Below are positions 45,565 to 50,416 of a stretch of DNA of 64,000 nt, in pieces; position 1 is the stretch's first letter, and the number at the start of each line of letters is the position of its first letter. The notes beneath the pieces are model-generated. The model was not told the DNA's origin, made no database searches, and saw only the letters and a program-made list of their open reading frames with translations. Origin of the DNA: Clostridia bacterium (GTDB taxonomy: Bacteria; Bacillota; Clostridia; Christensenellales; Aristaeellaceae); assembly GCA_017410455.1 (NCBI GenBank), contig JAFQQT010000004.1, positions 62,001 through 126,000 of the forward strand, given 5' to 3'. The position numbers and the translations under genes were made by a program.

Positions 45565-46878
45565 TTATGGTTTCATTTCTGCGTCAGCCATGCGCCGGAT
45601 ATGCCGATCGCCCATGAACCACAGGCAGATCATTACGCCCAGCACCGCCTGCACCGCAAAGAAACAGGCCGCGCCGCTGCCTTTGCCAGCACCGAAGAGC
45701 GCCGTCAGCGGGCTTTGCGCTCCCTGCGAGGCCATCAGCGGCTCAAAGGCCATGTCCACCGCCGCGCCGCCAAGGAAGTAGCCCAGCGGGATGGTGAAGA
45801 ACTGCAGTGTGTTGCGCGCCGCAAACACGCGGCCCTGCATCTCCTGCGGGATGTTCAGGCGCATGGCGGCATCCAGGTTGGTGCTCATCAGCGGGATCAG
45901 GATCCAGCCGAGGAACGCGCCCATGCACCACACCGGCAGCGAGCGGCCGAAGGCGAGGAAGAAGTTCTCCGTGCTCATGGAAAACAGCAGCGTCCAGCAC
46001 ACCACCCGCACGCGGCTTTTGGGCGCAGGCAGGATCGTCGCCAGCAGGCTGCCCAGCAGGGTCGTGACGCCAATGATACTGTTGACCAGGCCCAGGGCTG
46101 TCTCGCCGCCCTCCCGGGGCAGCATCAGCGCAGGCAGGGTCGCGTTGCACATGGAGGCCACGAAGTTGATCGCCGCCAGAAAGAGCACCAGCGACAGGAT
46201 GCCCCGCTTCTCCCGCAGGAAGGCAAGACCCGCCTTCACCGAGGCCATCAGCGGCTCCTTAGCCGCCGCGCGCTCCCCTTCCGGGATGCGGATGAACACC
46301 AGCAGCACCACAAAGGCCACCGCAAAGGTGAACAGGTCGAAGAGGATCACCGCGTCCATGCCCAGCAGCGTCATCACCGCCGTGGCAAGGATGGGGTTGA
46401 GGATGCCCGTAAGGCTGGAGGACAGATAGCGCAGGCTGCCCACGCGCTGGTAGTGTCTGCGGGGCAGGAGCGCTGTGGTCGCCACCTCGCTGGCGGGCTG
46501 CTGCACGGTGTTCATCAGGCCGTTGATGGCGTTGAGGACGTACAGGTGCCAGATCTGCAGCGTGCCCGTGCGCAGCATCAGGAGGGTGCACAGGGTCGTC
46601 CCCGCGGCAACGGCGTCGCAGACGAGCATGGTTTTCCGCTTGTCCCAGCGGTCGCTCAGCGCCCCGGCGAAGATGCTGCACAGCACATAGGGCGCGTAGG
46701 AGGACACCATCAGCAGCGCCGTCACCAGCGCCGAGCCCTGCTGTTCATAGCTCCAGAGCACCAGCGCGTAGCCGGTCATGGCGCTGCCCAGGGCGGAAAA
46801 GGTCTGCGTCACCCAGAGGATCAGGAAGGCGCGCATCTCGCGCACCGCCGTCAGGAAATCGTTGATTCGCGTTTTCAT
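45565..46878 (-). CDS. MFS efflux transporter (MefA/MFS_3-like)
   Basis: The 437-residue protein has about 12 membrane segments and resembles the macrolide-efflux-like branch of the major facilitator superfamily. It has TQTFSALGSAMTGYALVLW in the first helix and the loop 2-3 motif GALSDRWDKRKTML (about residues 67-80). Drug or metabolite export is likely, but the substrate is unknown. The ATG at 46878 is preceded by AAAAGGAG. That site lies inside an 11-bp hairpin after a short leader ORF, suggesting translational attenuation. Confidence 0.87.
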   Translation of the reverse strand: MKTRINDFLTAVREMRAFLILWVTQTFSALGSAMTGYALVLWSYEQQGSALVTALLMVSSYAPYVLCSIFAGALSDRWDKRKTMLVCDAVAAGTTLCTLLMLRTGTLQIWHLYVLNAINGLMNTVQQPASEVATTALLPRRHYQRVGSLRYLSSSLTGILNPILATAVMTLLGMDAVILFDLFTFAVAFVVLLVFIRIPEGERAAAKEPLMASVKAGLAFLREKRGILSLVLFLAAINFVASMCNATLPALMLPREGGETALGLVNSIIGVTTLLGSLLATILPAPKSRVRVVCWTLLFSMSTENFFLAFGRSLPVWCMGAFLGWILIPLMSTNLDAAMRLNIPQEMQGRVFAARNTLQFFTIPLGYFLGGAAVDMAFEPLMASQGAQSPLTALFGAGKGSGAACFFAVQAVLGVMICLWFMGDRHIRRMADAEMKP

Positions 46879-46887
46879 TGTTTATTC

Positions 46888-46923
46888 GCTCCTTTTCGTT
46901 ATGAATCAGTACCGAAAAGGAGC
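46888..46923 (-). promoter_or_regulatory. Hairpin sequestering the MFS Shine-Dalgarno
   Basis: On the minus strand GCTCCTTTTCG (46923-46913) pairs perfectly with CGAAAAGGAGC (46898-46888) across a 14-base loop. The 3' arm contains the AAGGAG ribosome binding site of the MFS gene. No T-run follows, so it is not a terminator. The 5' arm overlaps the end of the leader peptide ORF. Confidence 0.65.
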
Positions 46924-46944
46924 CCTGTCAATGGCCAGCAGCAT
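46906..46944 (-). CDS. Leader peptide MLLAIDRAPFRY upstream of the MFS gene
   Basis: A 12-codon ORF starts at ATG 46944, just after GGGAGGCGGAGCGGCAG, and stops in the loop of the hairpin. A ribosome stalled on its last codons would cover the 5' arm and free the MFS Shine-Dalgarno, as in cat- and erm-type translational attenuation. The peptide itself does not match a stalling motif I can name. Confidence 0.5.
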   Translation of the reverse strand: MLLAIDRAPFRY

Positions 46945-46968
46945 CTGCCGCTCCGCCTCCCTTCATGT

Positions 46969-46977
46969 ATTATATCA
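46969..46977 (-). promoter_or_regulatory. Extended -10 promoter of the MFS leader
   Basis: On the minus strand TGATATAAT is an extended -10 (TGnTATAAT) overlapping the stop codon of the upstream kinase gene. It would start transcription a few bases before the leader peptide ribosome binding site. The -35 region is poor. Confidence 0.5.
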
Positions 46978-47479
46978 GCGCCCGCACGACGGCTTCGGCG
47001 CATTCTTCGCTCGACATCCTGTCCGTATCGACGCGCAGGGCGTAGTCGATCCCCTGCGCCATGATGGCCGCCTGCTCGTCGGACTGCGTCTCATAGCGGT
47101 CGCCGCGGGCGATGTTCCGCGCCCGGCAGACCTCCAGCGGACAGGCCACCTCGACGATGGACAGCGGATTGTCCGCCAGGATCGCCCGCAGCTGCTCATA
47201 GTGCGGGGCGATCTCCGGCCGTTCCACGAGGATGCCATCGATGAGCACGTCATGCCCCATGTCGCTGTACATTTTCGCCGTATGGTACATCAGGATGATC
47301 ACGCGGCTCAAATGGCCCCAGTAATCCTCGCGGAGGAAACGCTCCCCCACCATCTCCTGAAACAGGTCGTTGGCGACGACGTAGAAATAGCAGTCCTCCC
47401 GATCCTGCAGAGCCTCGACGATGGATGTCTTGCCGGAGGAGGTGACGCCATTGAGGAAGATGATCTTACCTTTACCCAT
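46970..47479 (-). CDS. Small P-loop kinase (chloramphenicol phosphotransferase-like family)
   Basis: The 169-residue protein has a P-loop LNGVTSSGKTS (about residues 8-18), a lid-type RGDRYETQ segment (about 129-136) and an LLIDGILVERPE-like strand. This matches the CPT family, which includes the Streptomyces chloramphenicol 3-O-phosphotransferase and many uncharacterised kinases. Resistance cannot be claimed from sequence. The start at 47479 follows CAGGAGGG and overlaps the triple-GNAT gene by 8 bases. The next gene downstream is the MFS transporter. Confidence 0.75.
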   Translation of the reverse strand: MGKGKIIFLNGVTSSGKTSIVEALQDREDCYFYVVANDLFQEMVGERFLREDYWGHLSRVIILMYHTAKMYSDMGHDVLIDGILVERPEIAPHYEQLRAILADNPLSIVEVACPLEVCRARNIARGDRYETQSDEQAAIMAQGIDYALRVDTDRMSSEECAEAVVRALI

Positions 47480-48914
47480 TTGCTGCCCTCCTGACGAACC
47501 GCTGGCAGGGATAGCCGTTCTCCACGACCAGCGCATCCGGAACGAAGCCCTGCCGGACGTAGAATGCCCGCGCCGCCTCGCCCATGGGGTCGCCCTCGCG
47601 GAAGGTGGTGACGGTCAGGTCGCGGTCGGGATCGGCGATGGTCAGCATGAGGTTGAACATGCCCTGCGCCGCGCCCCGGCGGCGGGCTTCCGGTGCAACG
47701 GCCATGCAGCAGAGCTGATTGAGCCTGCGCGAGAACAGCAGCACGCCCACGATGCGCCCGTCCTCCACCGCGCAGATGGCATTCCCCTTGCCGATGAATT
47801 TCGCCACCGTCACCTCATGCTCCAGGAGCGCAGCTTCCGTCTCCAGCCCGGGGAAGTTCCACGCGACGCGGCGTACCAGCTTCATCCAGGCGGCGAGGTC
47901 CTCCATCTGGCCGAAGCGCACCTCCATGGGGCGGTACAGGTCGTATTCCATCTGGACGTCACAGGGCTCAGCTTCGACATGAGCCGCATCAGGCTCCTGC
48001 GCGAGGGTGCAGCCCAGCGCCCGGTAGGCCGCCTGGGACTCCTTCGAGGAATGGGCGGAGATGTACAGCTTCTCCGCGCCCGCTTCTCTCGCCGCGACGC
48101 ACACCGCCGCAAAGAGCGCCCGGCCCACGCCCTGCCCGCGACAGGGTTCGCTGACCTGGAGGATCTGCAGCTCAATATACTGTCCCCGGCTGCCCAGCCG
48201 CCCGCTCAGCGCGGCGAAGCCCACGACCGCGCCGCCTGCCCGGGCGATGAACACCGGATTGCCCATGCCGGCCGAGAGCGTCAGCCAGACGGCCTCGGAG
48301 CGCAGCCGCGTCAGGTCCCAGTCCTCGGTGAAGGCGATGGGCAGCAGCTGCCACGCACCGTCCACGCAGCGCCAGCACTCGCGCACCTCCTGATGCCGGC
48401 GGAAGCCGTCCAGCGCGAGGGGCTCGAGGCCCTCCGGCCCCAGACGGCTGACCGTCGCAGGCGGACTTTGCGTGCGCCGGACCAGCACCCGGCTGTCCTC
48501 GCCGTAGATGGACACGCGGTTCTCCAGGTACACGAAGCCGTACTTCTCATACAGGCCCTCATGGTCGGTGCAGATGTACACCTGCGGCGCGCCCTGCTCC
48601 CCAGCCACGCGTACCGCATGGTCGATCAGCCTCCCGGCGCAGCGCCTCCCCCGGTATTCCGGGGCCGTGTGGACGAAGCCGATCCACGGGGTCAGGGCGG
48701 GATCGTCGATGCAGTCCCGCTCCGCAAGGGTCAGGAAGGACGCCAGCACGTCGCCGTCCGCCAGCAGATACAGCGTGCCACGGCCCAGCACCTCGTGGAA
48801 GGTGCCCTCCGTCAGCAGGGTCTCCAGCAGCCGCGCCGCCCGCCATTCCACCCCGCGGATCTGCTCAAGCCAGTGGGACTGACGCGCGTCCTGAAAGTAG
48901 TCGATAATCCGCAT
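47472..48914 (-). CDS. Three tandem GNAT acetyltransferase domains
   Basis: The 480-residue protein carries three GNAT-like modules. The first (about residues 1-150) has APEYRGRRCAGRLIDHAV and a YGF turn. The second (about 165-325) has EPCRGQGVGRALFAAV, AYRALG. The third (about 330-480) has APEARRRGAAQGMFNLML and AFYVRQGF. Each keeps the R/Q-x-x-G-x-A/G acetyl-CoA loop in some form, the second best. Substrates are unknown. The start at 48914 comes 2 bases after the glycosyltransferase stop, so the two are coupled. Confidence 0.78.
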   Translation of the reverse strand: MRIIDYFQDARQSHWLEQIRGVEWRAARLLETLLTEGTFHEVLGRGTLYLLADGDVLASFLTLAERDCIDDPALTPWIGFVHTAPEYRGRRCAGRLIDHAVRVAGEQGAPQVYICTDHEGLYEKYGFVYLENRVSIYGEDSRVLVRRTQSPPATVSRLGPEGLEPLALDGFRRHQEVRECWRCVDGAWQLLPIAFTEDWDLTRLRSEAVWLTLSAGMGNPVFIARAGGAVVGFAALSGRLGSRGQYIELQILQVSEPCRGQGVGRALFAAVCVAAREAGAEKLYISAHSSKESQAAYRALGCTLAQEPDAAHVEAEPCDVQMEYDLYRPMEVRFGQMEDLAAWMKLVRRVAWNFPGLETEAALLEHEVTVAKFIGKGNAICAVEDGRIVGVLLFSRRLNQLCCMAVAPEARRRGAAQGMFNLMLTIADPDRDLTVTTFREGDPMGEAARAFYVRQGFVPDALVVENGYPCQRFVRRAANG

Positions 48915-48916
48915 CC

Positions 48917-50416
48917 TCACACCTCGCTCCCCGTCCGGCACGGGTCACGCAGATCCGGCCACGCAGCCAGCAGCCGCGCCATATCCGCAGGGTCGTCCGT
49001 CCGTTCCGGTCTGTCGCACACAATCTGCGCGTGGGGTGTGTACACGCACCGCAGCTTCCACTCCCACAGGCGCCGGCACCAGTCCACCGCGCCCAGGCCA
49101 CCCGTGTAGCCCTCGTCAAAGGGGATGAAATGATCGCGCCGCACCATCAGGCAGTCCGTGCTGACGGCCATCACATTGTGGCTGGTGCGGTTCAGGCCAT
49201 GCCAGCCGCCCGCGTGTCCGGGCAGGCCTGCATTGCGGCTGCACACGCGCTCCCCGTCCCAGGTATACCCCGCATGGACGATGCGGCCCCGCCGGTCGGT
49301 GATCATCGGCGTGACGGCGGCGACATCATCCCGCTGGGCATACATGAGCATCTCGCGCAGGGCGGCCTCATCTGGCTCGCTGACGCCCTCGCGGAGGATC
49401 AGCAGCACGTCCCCGGTCGCCCCCACCGCCGCGCGGTTGATGAAGGCATACCCCTCGCCCGCCGGCACATGGATCTTCTGCACCGTCAGCCCGGCGGGAA
49501 CATCCCAGCGCAGGCGGAGCACGCCGTCCTCCACCGTGCACTGCCCGGGGCGGCCGATGCGCGCCATGTGCTCCGTCACGGCCCTGGCTGCAGCGTCCTG
49601 GCACTGCTGAAGCCGCTGATGGCTCATGGATGCGCCCACCGTCCGCCAGTGATACAGCACCCGCGGGATGTGGCAGATGCGCTGCGTGCGCTCGGCGATG
49701 CGCAGCGTCAGGTCGTGATCCTGCGAGCCGTCGAAGGCCGGGCGCAGGCCGCCCAGCTCCGTCAGCAGCGTTCGCTTGACCACCATCAGGTGGCAGATGT
49801 AGTTGCCGCTGCGCAGGTTGTCCGGGCAGAAGTCGGGCTTGCGGTGCGGGTCAGTGCGGACGCGGCCGTCCTCGGTCAGCTTGTCCTCGTCGGAATAGAG
49901 CAGGTCCGGGGCTTCATCGGCAATGGCGCGGGCCACATGCCACAGCGCGTCCGGCGTGAGGGTGTCGTCGTGGTCGCACAGCGCGATGTAATCCCCCCGG
50001 CAGGCCGCGATGGCCCGGTTGGTGTTGCCGGCGATGCCCTCGTTGGCGCTGCCGTGGATGACGCGGATGCGCCCGTCCTTCAGCGCGTCCATGGAGCGGA
50101 TGGCCTCAGCGTCCGTGCTGCAGCCGTCGTAGATGACGGCCTCCCAGTTCGCATAGGTCTGGGCGGTCAGCGAGTCCGCCAGCGCCTGCAGGAACGCCGG
50201 CCGGGTGTTCCATGCCGGGATGGCGATGCTGATCATCCCCGCGTCCGGCGGGTTCATCCGCTGTGACGCCAGTTCCTCTGCAGAGGGATCGGCACGCCTT
50301 GCCGCGCGGTCGTAAACGCGCAGCACGCGCCCGGAAAACATCTCCACCGCCCGGCGGAGCGTGTATCCTAGGCCATTTCGGCGCACATAGGCCATCACAC
50401 GTGCGAACATCGGCAT
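48917..50416 (-). CDS. Glycosyltransferase family 2
   Basis: The 499-residue protein has a GT2 domain from about residue 55 (MISIAIPAWNTRPAFLQAL) with DGCSTDAE and the metal motif LCDHDD (about residues 145-150), and DLLYSDEDKL (about 172-181). A second, weaker GT-like half (about 330-490, VDWCRRLWEWKLRCVY) may be a degenerate repeat, as in rhamnosyltransferase-like proteins. The acceptor is unknown. The start at 50416 is 8 bases after GGAGG; two earlier start codons are too close to that site. It heads the triple-GNAT-kinase-MFS series. Confidence 0.85.
   Translation of the reverse strand: MPMFARVMAYVRRNGLGYTLRRAVEMFSGRVLRVYDRAARRADPSAEELASQRMNPPDAGMISIAIPAWNTRPAFLQALADSLTAQTYANWEAVIYDGCSTDAEAIRSMDALKDGRIRVIHGSANEGIAGNTNRAIAACRGDYIALCDHDDTLTPDALWHVARAIADEAPDLLYSDEDKLTEDGRVRTDPHRKPDFCPDNLRSGNYICHLMVVKRTLLTELGGLRPAFDGSQDHDLTLRIAERTQRICHIPRVLYHWRTVGASMSHQRLQQCQDAAARAVTEHMARIGRPGQCTVEDGVLRLRWDVPAGLTVQKIHVPAGEGYAFINRAAVGATGDVLLILREGVSEPDEAALREMLMYAQRDDVAAVTPMITDRRGRIVHAGYTWDGERVCSRNAGLPGHAGGWHGLNRTSHNVMAVSTDCLMVRRDHFIPFDEGYTGGLGAVDWCRRLWEWKLRCVYTPHAQIVCDRPERTDDPADMARLLAAWPDLRDPCRTGSEV

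Follow-up and report, generated by a model that had tools for sequence, protein, structure and literature searches.

The ermC attenuator works through alternative folds, in which the Shine–Dalgarno (SD) sequence lies in segment 4 and the pairing of segments 2 and 3 (2:3) is the releasing helix. The catA86 leader has a different stall peptide from that of the locus described here, most of whose relatives have four RNA segments. Leader-peptide attenuation of an MFS exporter is already known: cmlA, an integron cassette, places an MFS chloramphenicol exporter behind a translational attenuator with a leader of 9 amino acids (PMC8876359).

Here we describe a locus in a 64,000-nucleotide stretch of Clostridia DNA (the window) whose MFS exporter is very probably controlled by translational attenuation, that is, by sensing of the ribosome (Table 1). 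With cmlA the switch shares a short leader, a sequestered SD, an MFS exporter and two alternative stem-loops (PMC8876359). It differs from the 9-residue cmlA leader in having 12 codons, or 18–20 in a second exporter subfamily, in an exporter that is TIGR00900/Mef-like and found mainly in Clostridia, and in the single stem of the window, a comparison of features and not of sequences matched by a tool. That single stem, running from the leader codons to the SD, resembles the Gram-positive cat leaders of the catA86 type (general scheme in PMC8876359). The mef(E)/msr(D) leaders (MTASMRLR and MYLIFM) also precede a Mef-type exporter but, unlike ours, use transcriptional attenuation (PMC4335068, PMC10314930). 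In Clostridia, stalling on the uORF of Clostridioides cplR likewise frees a sequestered SD (PMC10201436), although cplR has a uORF of 3 codons, an added terminator and an ABC-F gene.

Table 1. Features of the exporter locus, in positions of the window
Feature	Position	Strand	Remarks
Extended −10-like element TGaTATAAT	46969..46977	−	Overlaps the CPT-like gene at its stop codon; read directly
SD of the leader ORF, AAGGGAGG	46956..46963	−	Read directly
Leader ORF, 12 codons, MLLAIDRAPFRY + TGA	46906..46944	−	ATG 46944-46942, TGA stop 46908-46906; read directly; length and peptide recur in relatives
Hairpin 5′ arm (segment 1), GCTCCTTTTCG	46913..46923	−	Within leader codons 8-11
Hairpin 3′ arm, CGAAAAGGAGC	46888..46898	−	Holds the MFS gene SD AAGGAG (46894-46889)
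MFS exporter, 437 aa	45565..46878	−	ATG 46878-46876; Pfam MFS_1
CPT-like gene (Pfam PF07931)	46970..47479	−	Directly upstream of the leader; analysed as 46970-47485
Multi-GNAT-domain gene	47472-48941	−	3′ end overlapped by the CPT-like gene
Antisense 487-codon open frame	45601-47064	+	Spans exporter and leader

Direct reading of the minus strand bears out the initial annotation in the order of its elements, a leader SD, a 12-codon ORF and a perfect 11-bp hairpin (with a 14-nt loop), and in the placing of the 5′ arm in the last leader codons and of the 3′ arm over the AAGGAG of the transporter. Folding of the leader RNA gives −33.3 kcal/mol (z −3.75), a value that none of 200 shuffles reached. 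A perfect stem of at least 11 bp at the SD occurs at only one of the 94 candidate gene starts in the window, that of the exporter, and the next best has 8; among 20,000 random window positions 11 had a stem of 11, some of which may be the exporter locus itself. In common with cat/erm-type attenuators, the window has a short leader ORF with its own SD and, together with its relatives, a covarying stem between leader codons and the main gene's SD. No Rfam match was found in 46500–47300 of the window at E values up to 1, nor among 25 loci at gathering scores.

The weakest element of the locus is the putative promoter. The extended −10 sequence named in the initial annotation is present, but a sigma-70 scan of 46800–47100 finds no site. 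Among 176 related leaders, duplicates included, an exact TATAAT lies 12–70 nt upstream of 36, against about 7 expected from single-base shuffles; with one mismatch the count in the same zone is 102, against about 67. The GNAT gene, the CPT-like gene and the exporter may form one locus. The antisense frame is probably a by-product of codon usage.

We propose that, without drug, ribosomes would complete the leader and depart, the stem would re-form and the exporter would stay silent. With a drug acting at the peptidyl-transferase centre, translation would halt near codon 5 (M-L-L-A-I) and the front of the stalled ribosome would cover segment 1, so that no stem would form, the SD would be open and the exporter would be made.

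The genus of the window provides the closest comparison. We sought the exporter in 18 genus genomes and found a match in 14; six single-stem leaders, the window's included, occur in five genomes (L002, L003, L192, L193, L194 and L199). Compared without gaps, their arms pair at 68 of 72 positions, against 24–42 with the arms slid, and compensatory changes are found at pair 6 (U-A to A-U), pair 7 (U-A to G-C) and pair 11 (A-U, G-U, G-C). The 12-nt arms are 12 to 17 nt apart in five copies and 106 nt apart in L193, where the insert in the loop folds into strong hairpins and the stem is retained. The CPT-like gene is directly upstream in five of the six loci, and one further genus locus (L197) has a CPT-like match.

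In a midpoint-rooted tree of 41 exporters, with the second subfamily on the other side, the six single-stem exporters form one clade (100/99) among exporters with long leaders. Given this nesting, the simplest interpretation of the window form is that of a reduced version of a longer switch, reduction being the presumed direction of evolution. Single-stem versions are also found outside the genus, before exporters in L204/L266 (one locus) and L232, where segment 2 itself is the SD, and in L240. When 391 class genomes were searched for the exact hairpin of the window, a pattern that proved too narrow, the window alone matched.

Outside the window's clade the exporter is usually preceded by this longer switch, which has four segments and two mutually exclusive folds. 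Segment 1 (codons 8–10, GCUCCAUGC) pairs with segment 2 (GCAUGGAG). Segment 3 (CAGRCUUUGC) has two alternative partners: segment 4 (GGAGCAAAGYC), which holds the SD, and 1′ (GCARRGYCUGA), which consists of the final leader codons and the stop codon. We aligned 121 leaders, without L002 and L003 and without those whose stop codon lies over 150 nt from the gene. In this alignment 91.9% of cells are paired for 1:2, 90.2% for 3:4 and 95.1% for 1′:3, each above the maximum of 500 shuffles, and changes on both sides occur at 7 of 9, 4 of 8 and 4 of 11 pairs, respectively; the first pair of the alignment (columns 21:66) pairs in only 33%. In 35 of these leaders, picked by hand (alignment A2), 1:2 plus 3:4 reach 96.4% and 1′:3 reaches 93.2%, against 30–47% and 26–50% when slid by 1–3 columns. 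Both folds are conserved and exclude each other, which therefore points to a switch. In its closed state segment 1 would pair with segment 2 and segment 3 would sequester the SD (3:4); a stall at codon 5 would block 1:2 and leave the last leader codons free, and 1′:3 would then break 3:4.

This form resembles ermC in its alternative folds and in having the SD as segment 4 (scheme in PMC10219788). Unlike ermC, its releasing helix is 1′:3, made from the end of the leader and segment 3, instead of 2:3, and in our model 1′:3 forms only for an early stall. We did not find the ermC arrangement of 1:2 and 3:4 with 2:3 releasing in the loci folded: the window has one stem, and six of seven relatives folded at the modelled stall form 1′:3, while 3:4 stays in L006.

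The switch is widespread. At E values of 1e-60 or better the exporter occurs at 85 places in 70 of 200 genomes of the family; we read 70 of these places upstream, setting 10 leader starts by hand, and found a leader at 66 and none at four (L010, L050, L057 and L072). L171, with the same gene start as L010, has its leader 278 nt upstream. Two MFS homologues of 33–34% identity (L206, L207) have no leader by eye. A scan of GTDB genome contigs with a long-form pattern gave at least 119 stretches; among the 80 matches listed are records of Lachnospiraceae, Oscillospiraceae, Erysipelotrichaceae and Christensenellaceae, one of Treponema and one of Sphaerochaetaceae. The last two (L129 and L149) carry the long-form switch and an exporter start under those labels, and reflect either transfer beyond Bacillota or an error of MAG binning. 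An exporter start follows 112 of the at least 119 matches (105 by start motif, the others by tblastn or by eye); of the rest, three precede an exporter remnant, one a SpoU methylase, two nothing that we recognised (L083, L170) and one looks like chance (L181).

By our start-site rule, 84 of 117 leaders have 12 codons. Those of the second exporter subfamily, which is about 40% identical, mostly have 18–20 and end in ADVSAPRKV or similar. The family also varies in other ways. Long inserts between leader and gene are found in L029, L049 and L171 as well; L016, L017 and L066 have lost the usual stop codon and have longer leaders with the RNA segments retained; and in L100, L138, L140, L231 and L260 the leader and switch, or their remnants, stand before truncated or internally deleted exporters.

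For the leader peptides we dropped exact duplicates and L100, L138, L155 and L190 (misread start or broken gene) from the 176 leaders, and defined set A, 127 distinct leaders of 12 codons, and set B, 25 leaders of 18–20 codons with AP near the end. Within codons 2–7 of set A, which lie outside the paired segments, 50% of single-base codon differences are synonymous in frame, compared with 13% and 19% when either of the other frames is read. Set against 500 column shuffles, amino-acid similarity is raised at codons 3, 4 and 5 (L, C/A, I; 0 of 500 each) and less clearly at codons 2, 6 and 7 (4, 5 and 36 of 500), all as descriptive counts over leaders that share ancestry. These results support a constraint on the leader codons as peptide. 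Towards the end of the leader, L106, L230, L233–L236, L261 and L262 read segment 1 in another frame, giving LHAKS, LHAKP, LCAKS, LHAES or THAKP, so it is the RNA segment and not the peptide end that is kept in those loci; the start assignments of the Cfr leaders (L233, L234) are uncertain.

In our model, which considers secondary structure only, the ribosome holds the RNA unpaired as far as 15 nt beyond the first base of the P site. For the 121 long-form leaders, opening the SD costs 6.4 kcal/mol without a ribosome; a ribosome whose P site is at codon 3, 4 or 5 lowers this to 5.0, 2.7 and 1.9 kcal/mol, respectively, and the cost then rises to 5.8 at codon 6 and 6.9–7.4 at codons 7–13. In 118 of the 121 leaders the cost is lower at codon 5 than at codon 12, compared with 47 of 121 in a control with the region from codon 8 to the SD shuffled, where the cost is flat at 2.6–3.3 kcal/mol (shuffles here and for accessibility are single-base). 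For the 25 set B leaders the minimum, 2.1 kcal/mol, falls one codon earlier. In the window the ribosome lowers the cost from 12.3 kcal/mol to 4.0 when it stands at codon 4, to 2.6 at codon 5 and to 1.4–1.6 at later codons. Given these modelled costs, a stall near codon 5, in the constrained M-L-L-A-I, would fit both forms; with a stall at the end of the leader the long form would, in the model, stay closed.

That said, modelled accessibility of the SD at the stall is only moderate. Over 122 leaders its mean unpaired probability is 0.11 free, 0.40 at codon 5 and 0.23–0.24 later, exceeding 0.5 in 35% of them at codon 5 and in 24–25% at codons 6–13; by this measure the best front edge in a sample of 60 is at nt 27–28. 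Because shuffled RNA averages 0.36–0.44 at every position (57 leaders), the codon-5 peak contrasts with the closed state and not with random RNA. Among the seven relatives folded at the modelled stall, the SD is fully unpaired only in L107, and another helix holds it elsewhere. The single-stem leaders L194 and L192 have low SD accessibility from codon 5 on (0.02–0.34 and 0.30–0.47), but their opening cost stays low there (1.2–2.8 and 1.8–2.3 kcal/mol), in a run over the single-stem leaders other than L193. Taken together, the stem kept in the genus with compensatory changes, a leader that recurs and is constrained as peptide, and a modelled ribosome that opens the SD support the translational-attenuator architecture of the initial annotation.

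The module is also found before other genes. A covariance model of the 35 leaders, searched in 391 genomes of the class, gave 39 matches in 37 genomes, with 21 exporters, 1 exporter remnant, 3 CatA-like, 2 Cfr and 5 CD3324-family genes downstream and 7 matches without a plausible module; the L229 exporter is only 36% identical to that of the window. Searching 348 phylum genomes, some of which are also in the class set, adds an exporter (L259, the same locus as L205), the exporter remnant L260 and two CD3324 genes. The small CD3324-family genes behind the module are those of L230, L235, L236, L261, L262, L263 and L264, and the L235 and L236 proteins are weakly similar to the Mor activator.

The three CatA-like genes (L226–L228) score 194 bits against 23.5 for Pfam CAT in the two scanned, and 210, 212 and 214 bits against the CatA NCBIfam equivalog cut-off of 270; the nearest solved structure to L226 is a type III CAT. 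The two Cfr genes (L233, L234) exceed their NCBIfam equivalog cut-off, at 678 and 642 bits against 468, and the nearest solved structure to L233 is Cfr. The CatA-like leader of L227, MKFCIAVFPCKA, is an exporter-type peptide close to the exporter leaders, and the remaining CatA leaders are MKRGLDAAPCEA and MKRGLDNAPCEA. At 17 CatA-homologue loci (L238–L254) the model found the module only in L238 and L239, which are the L226 and L227 loci; by eye, L240, 51% identical to the L226 protein, has the leader MKRGLDEAF and a single stem to the SD, the catA86-type layout. The cfr(C) record of C. difficile (L255) has no match to the RNA model, and the S. aureus cfr record (L258) starts at the gene. Folded with a modelled ribosome at the matching place, L227, L226, L106, L236, L261 and L240 open; L235 and L233 open partly or weakly, L228 and L230 hardly, and L234 hardly or not, while L262 is open already at codon 1.

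We think it somewhat more likely than not that these loci belong to an undescribed and widespread family of RNA switches in Clostridia, in which a position-sensing ruler is combined with gene shuffling and with single stems in at least three lineages. Such a ruler would open only for a ribosome whose front edge has entered segment 1 by a few nucleotides (about codon 5), and would stay closed for earlier or later stops. The RNA part would be kept, and the peptide and even the frame of segment 1 (APCKV or LHAKS) exchanged. One switch would have been shuffled before genes for exporters, CatA, Cfr, a SpoU methylase and members of the CD3324 family, and the bare single stem would stand in at least three separate lineages, the genus of the window among them.

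What would stall the ribosome? CatA acts on chloramphenicol, and Cfr is catalogued under resistance to phenicols, lincosamides, oxazolidinones, pleuromutilins and streptogramins. As CatA-like and Cfr genes share the module, a phenicol-like inducer is favoured, and we lean towards this or another peptidyl-transferase drug. Stalling by chloramphenicol and linezolid is best with a penultimate alanine and less with serine or threonine (PMC8987054). The residue before the predicted P site is Ala in 25 of 25 set B leaders, and C in 71, A in 30, T in 9 and S in 1 of the 127 in set A. The rule does not hold throughout, as set A mostly has Cys and the MKRGLD (CatA) leaders have Gly, and this pattern is a suggestive but not decisive pointer to a phenicol-type drug. 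Set B leaders have Ala at position −9 (25 of 25) and Asp at −8 (23 of 25), an Ala-Asp pair that resembles KNAD, the chloramphenicol arrest motif of the CmlA leader (PMC10192921).

The same attenuator might instead respond to a macrolide, which would stall its hydrophobic leader within the exit tunnel in the manner of MsrDL (MYLIFM); we regard this as possible but doubtful. The closest NCBIfam model to the exporter is TIGR00900, with Mef models next, and the nearest named resistance models are those for macrolides (Mef), but every NCBIfam match is below its curated cut-off. The initial annotation's 'MefA-type' thus stands in that Mef models match and falls short in the scores, 74–94 bits against 675–870 for the Mef macrolide exporter; a sequence search against solved structures gave no match. 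By eye, MLLAI resembles short hydrophobic macrolide leaders, and MsrDL stalls with M6 in the P site (PMC10314930). The same paper assigns the macrolide +x+ motif to the mef leader, and MLLAIDRAPFRY, read directly, lacks an R/K-x-R/K motif of the mef(E)L/ermDL type. The same module precedes CatA-like and Cfr genes, which also speaks against a macrolide, as does the CPT-like neighbour. The latter matches Pfam CPT at 93 bits against 22, and reaches 62 bits against 250 for the NCBIfam chloramphenicol phosphotransferase equivalog; it may share a role in the same resistance locus.

We consider it unlikely that the leader senses something other than a drug, whether cysteine, another amino acid or some other metabolite, which the exporter would then export. 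Cys is frequent in the leader at codons 4 (71 of 127) and 10 (107 of 127), and the substrate of the MFS protein may be a metabolite, but codon 10 sits in a paired segment, the six single-stem leaders have one Cys in total, and a metabolite sensor is not expected before CatA and Cfr. Transcriptional attenuation by a terminator, as in streptococcal mef(E) (PMC4335068), is less probable still: no terminator-like site was found in 46800–47100, so that the stretch from leader to gene, in the window only, is without an intrinsic terminator; the 3′ arm holds the SD, followed by AUG, and no U run was seen by eye in the relatives read. The initial annotation offered a DNA operator as the alternative. 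Such a role for the perfect 11-bp inverted repeat that separates leader and exporter, with a repressor protein as its ligand, is barely credible, being unable to explain arms 12 to 106 nt apart in six copies, a 5′ arm in a constrained frame, a 3′ arm that holds the SD and covarying alternative helices in relatives.

Translational attenuation through a leader peptide is thus our preferred reading. In open-access full text we found no description of the leader or the switch, and searches there for the leader peptide strings gave unrelated papers or none; the switch family, its range of genes and its early-stall logic appear to be new. If true, Clostridia of the gut and rumen would have a large class of switches induced in response to antibiotics. 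A common MFS family, to which the libraries searched give no specific name, would then have a suggested role in drug export. The model predicts where the ribosome stalls to an accuracy of one or two codons, and the genes that share the switch narrow the class of inducer. Furthermore, natural variants with single stems, changed frames and different genes would make the sequence rules of drug-dependent stalling directly testable.
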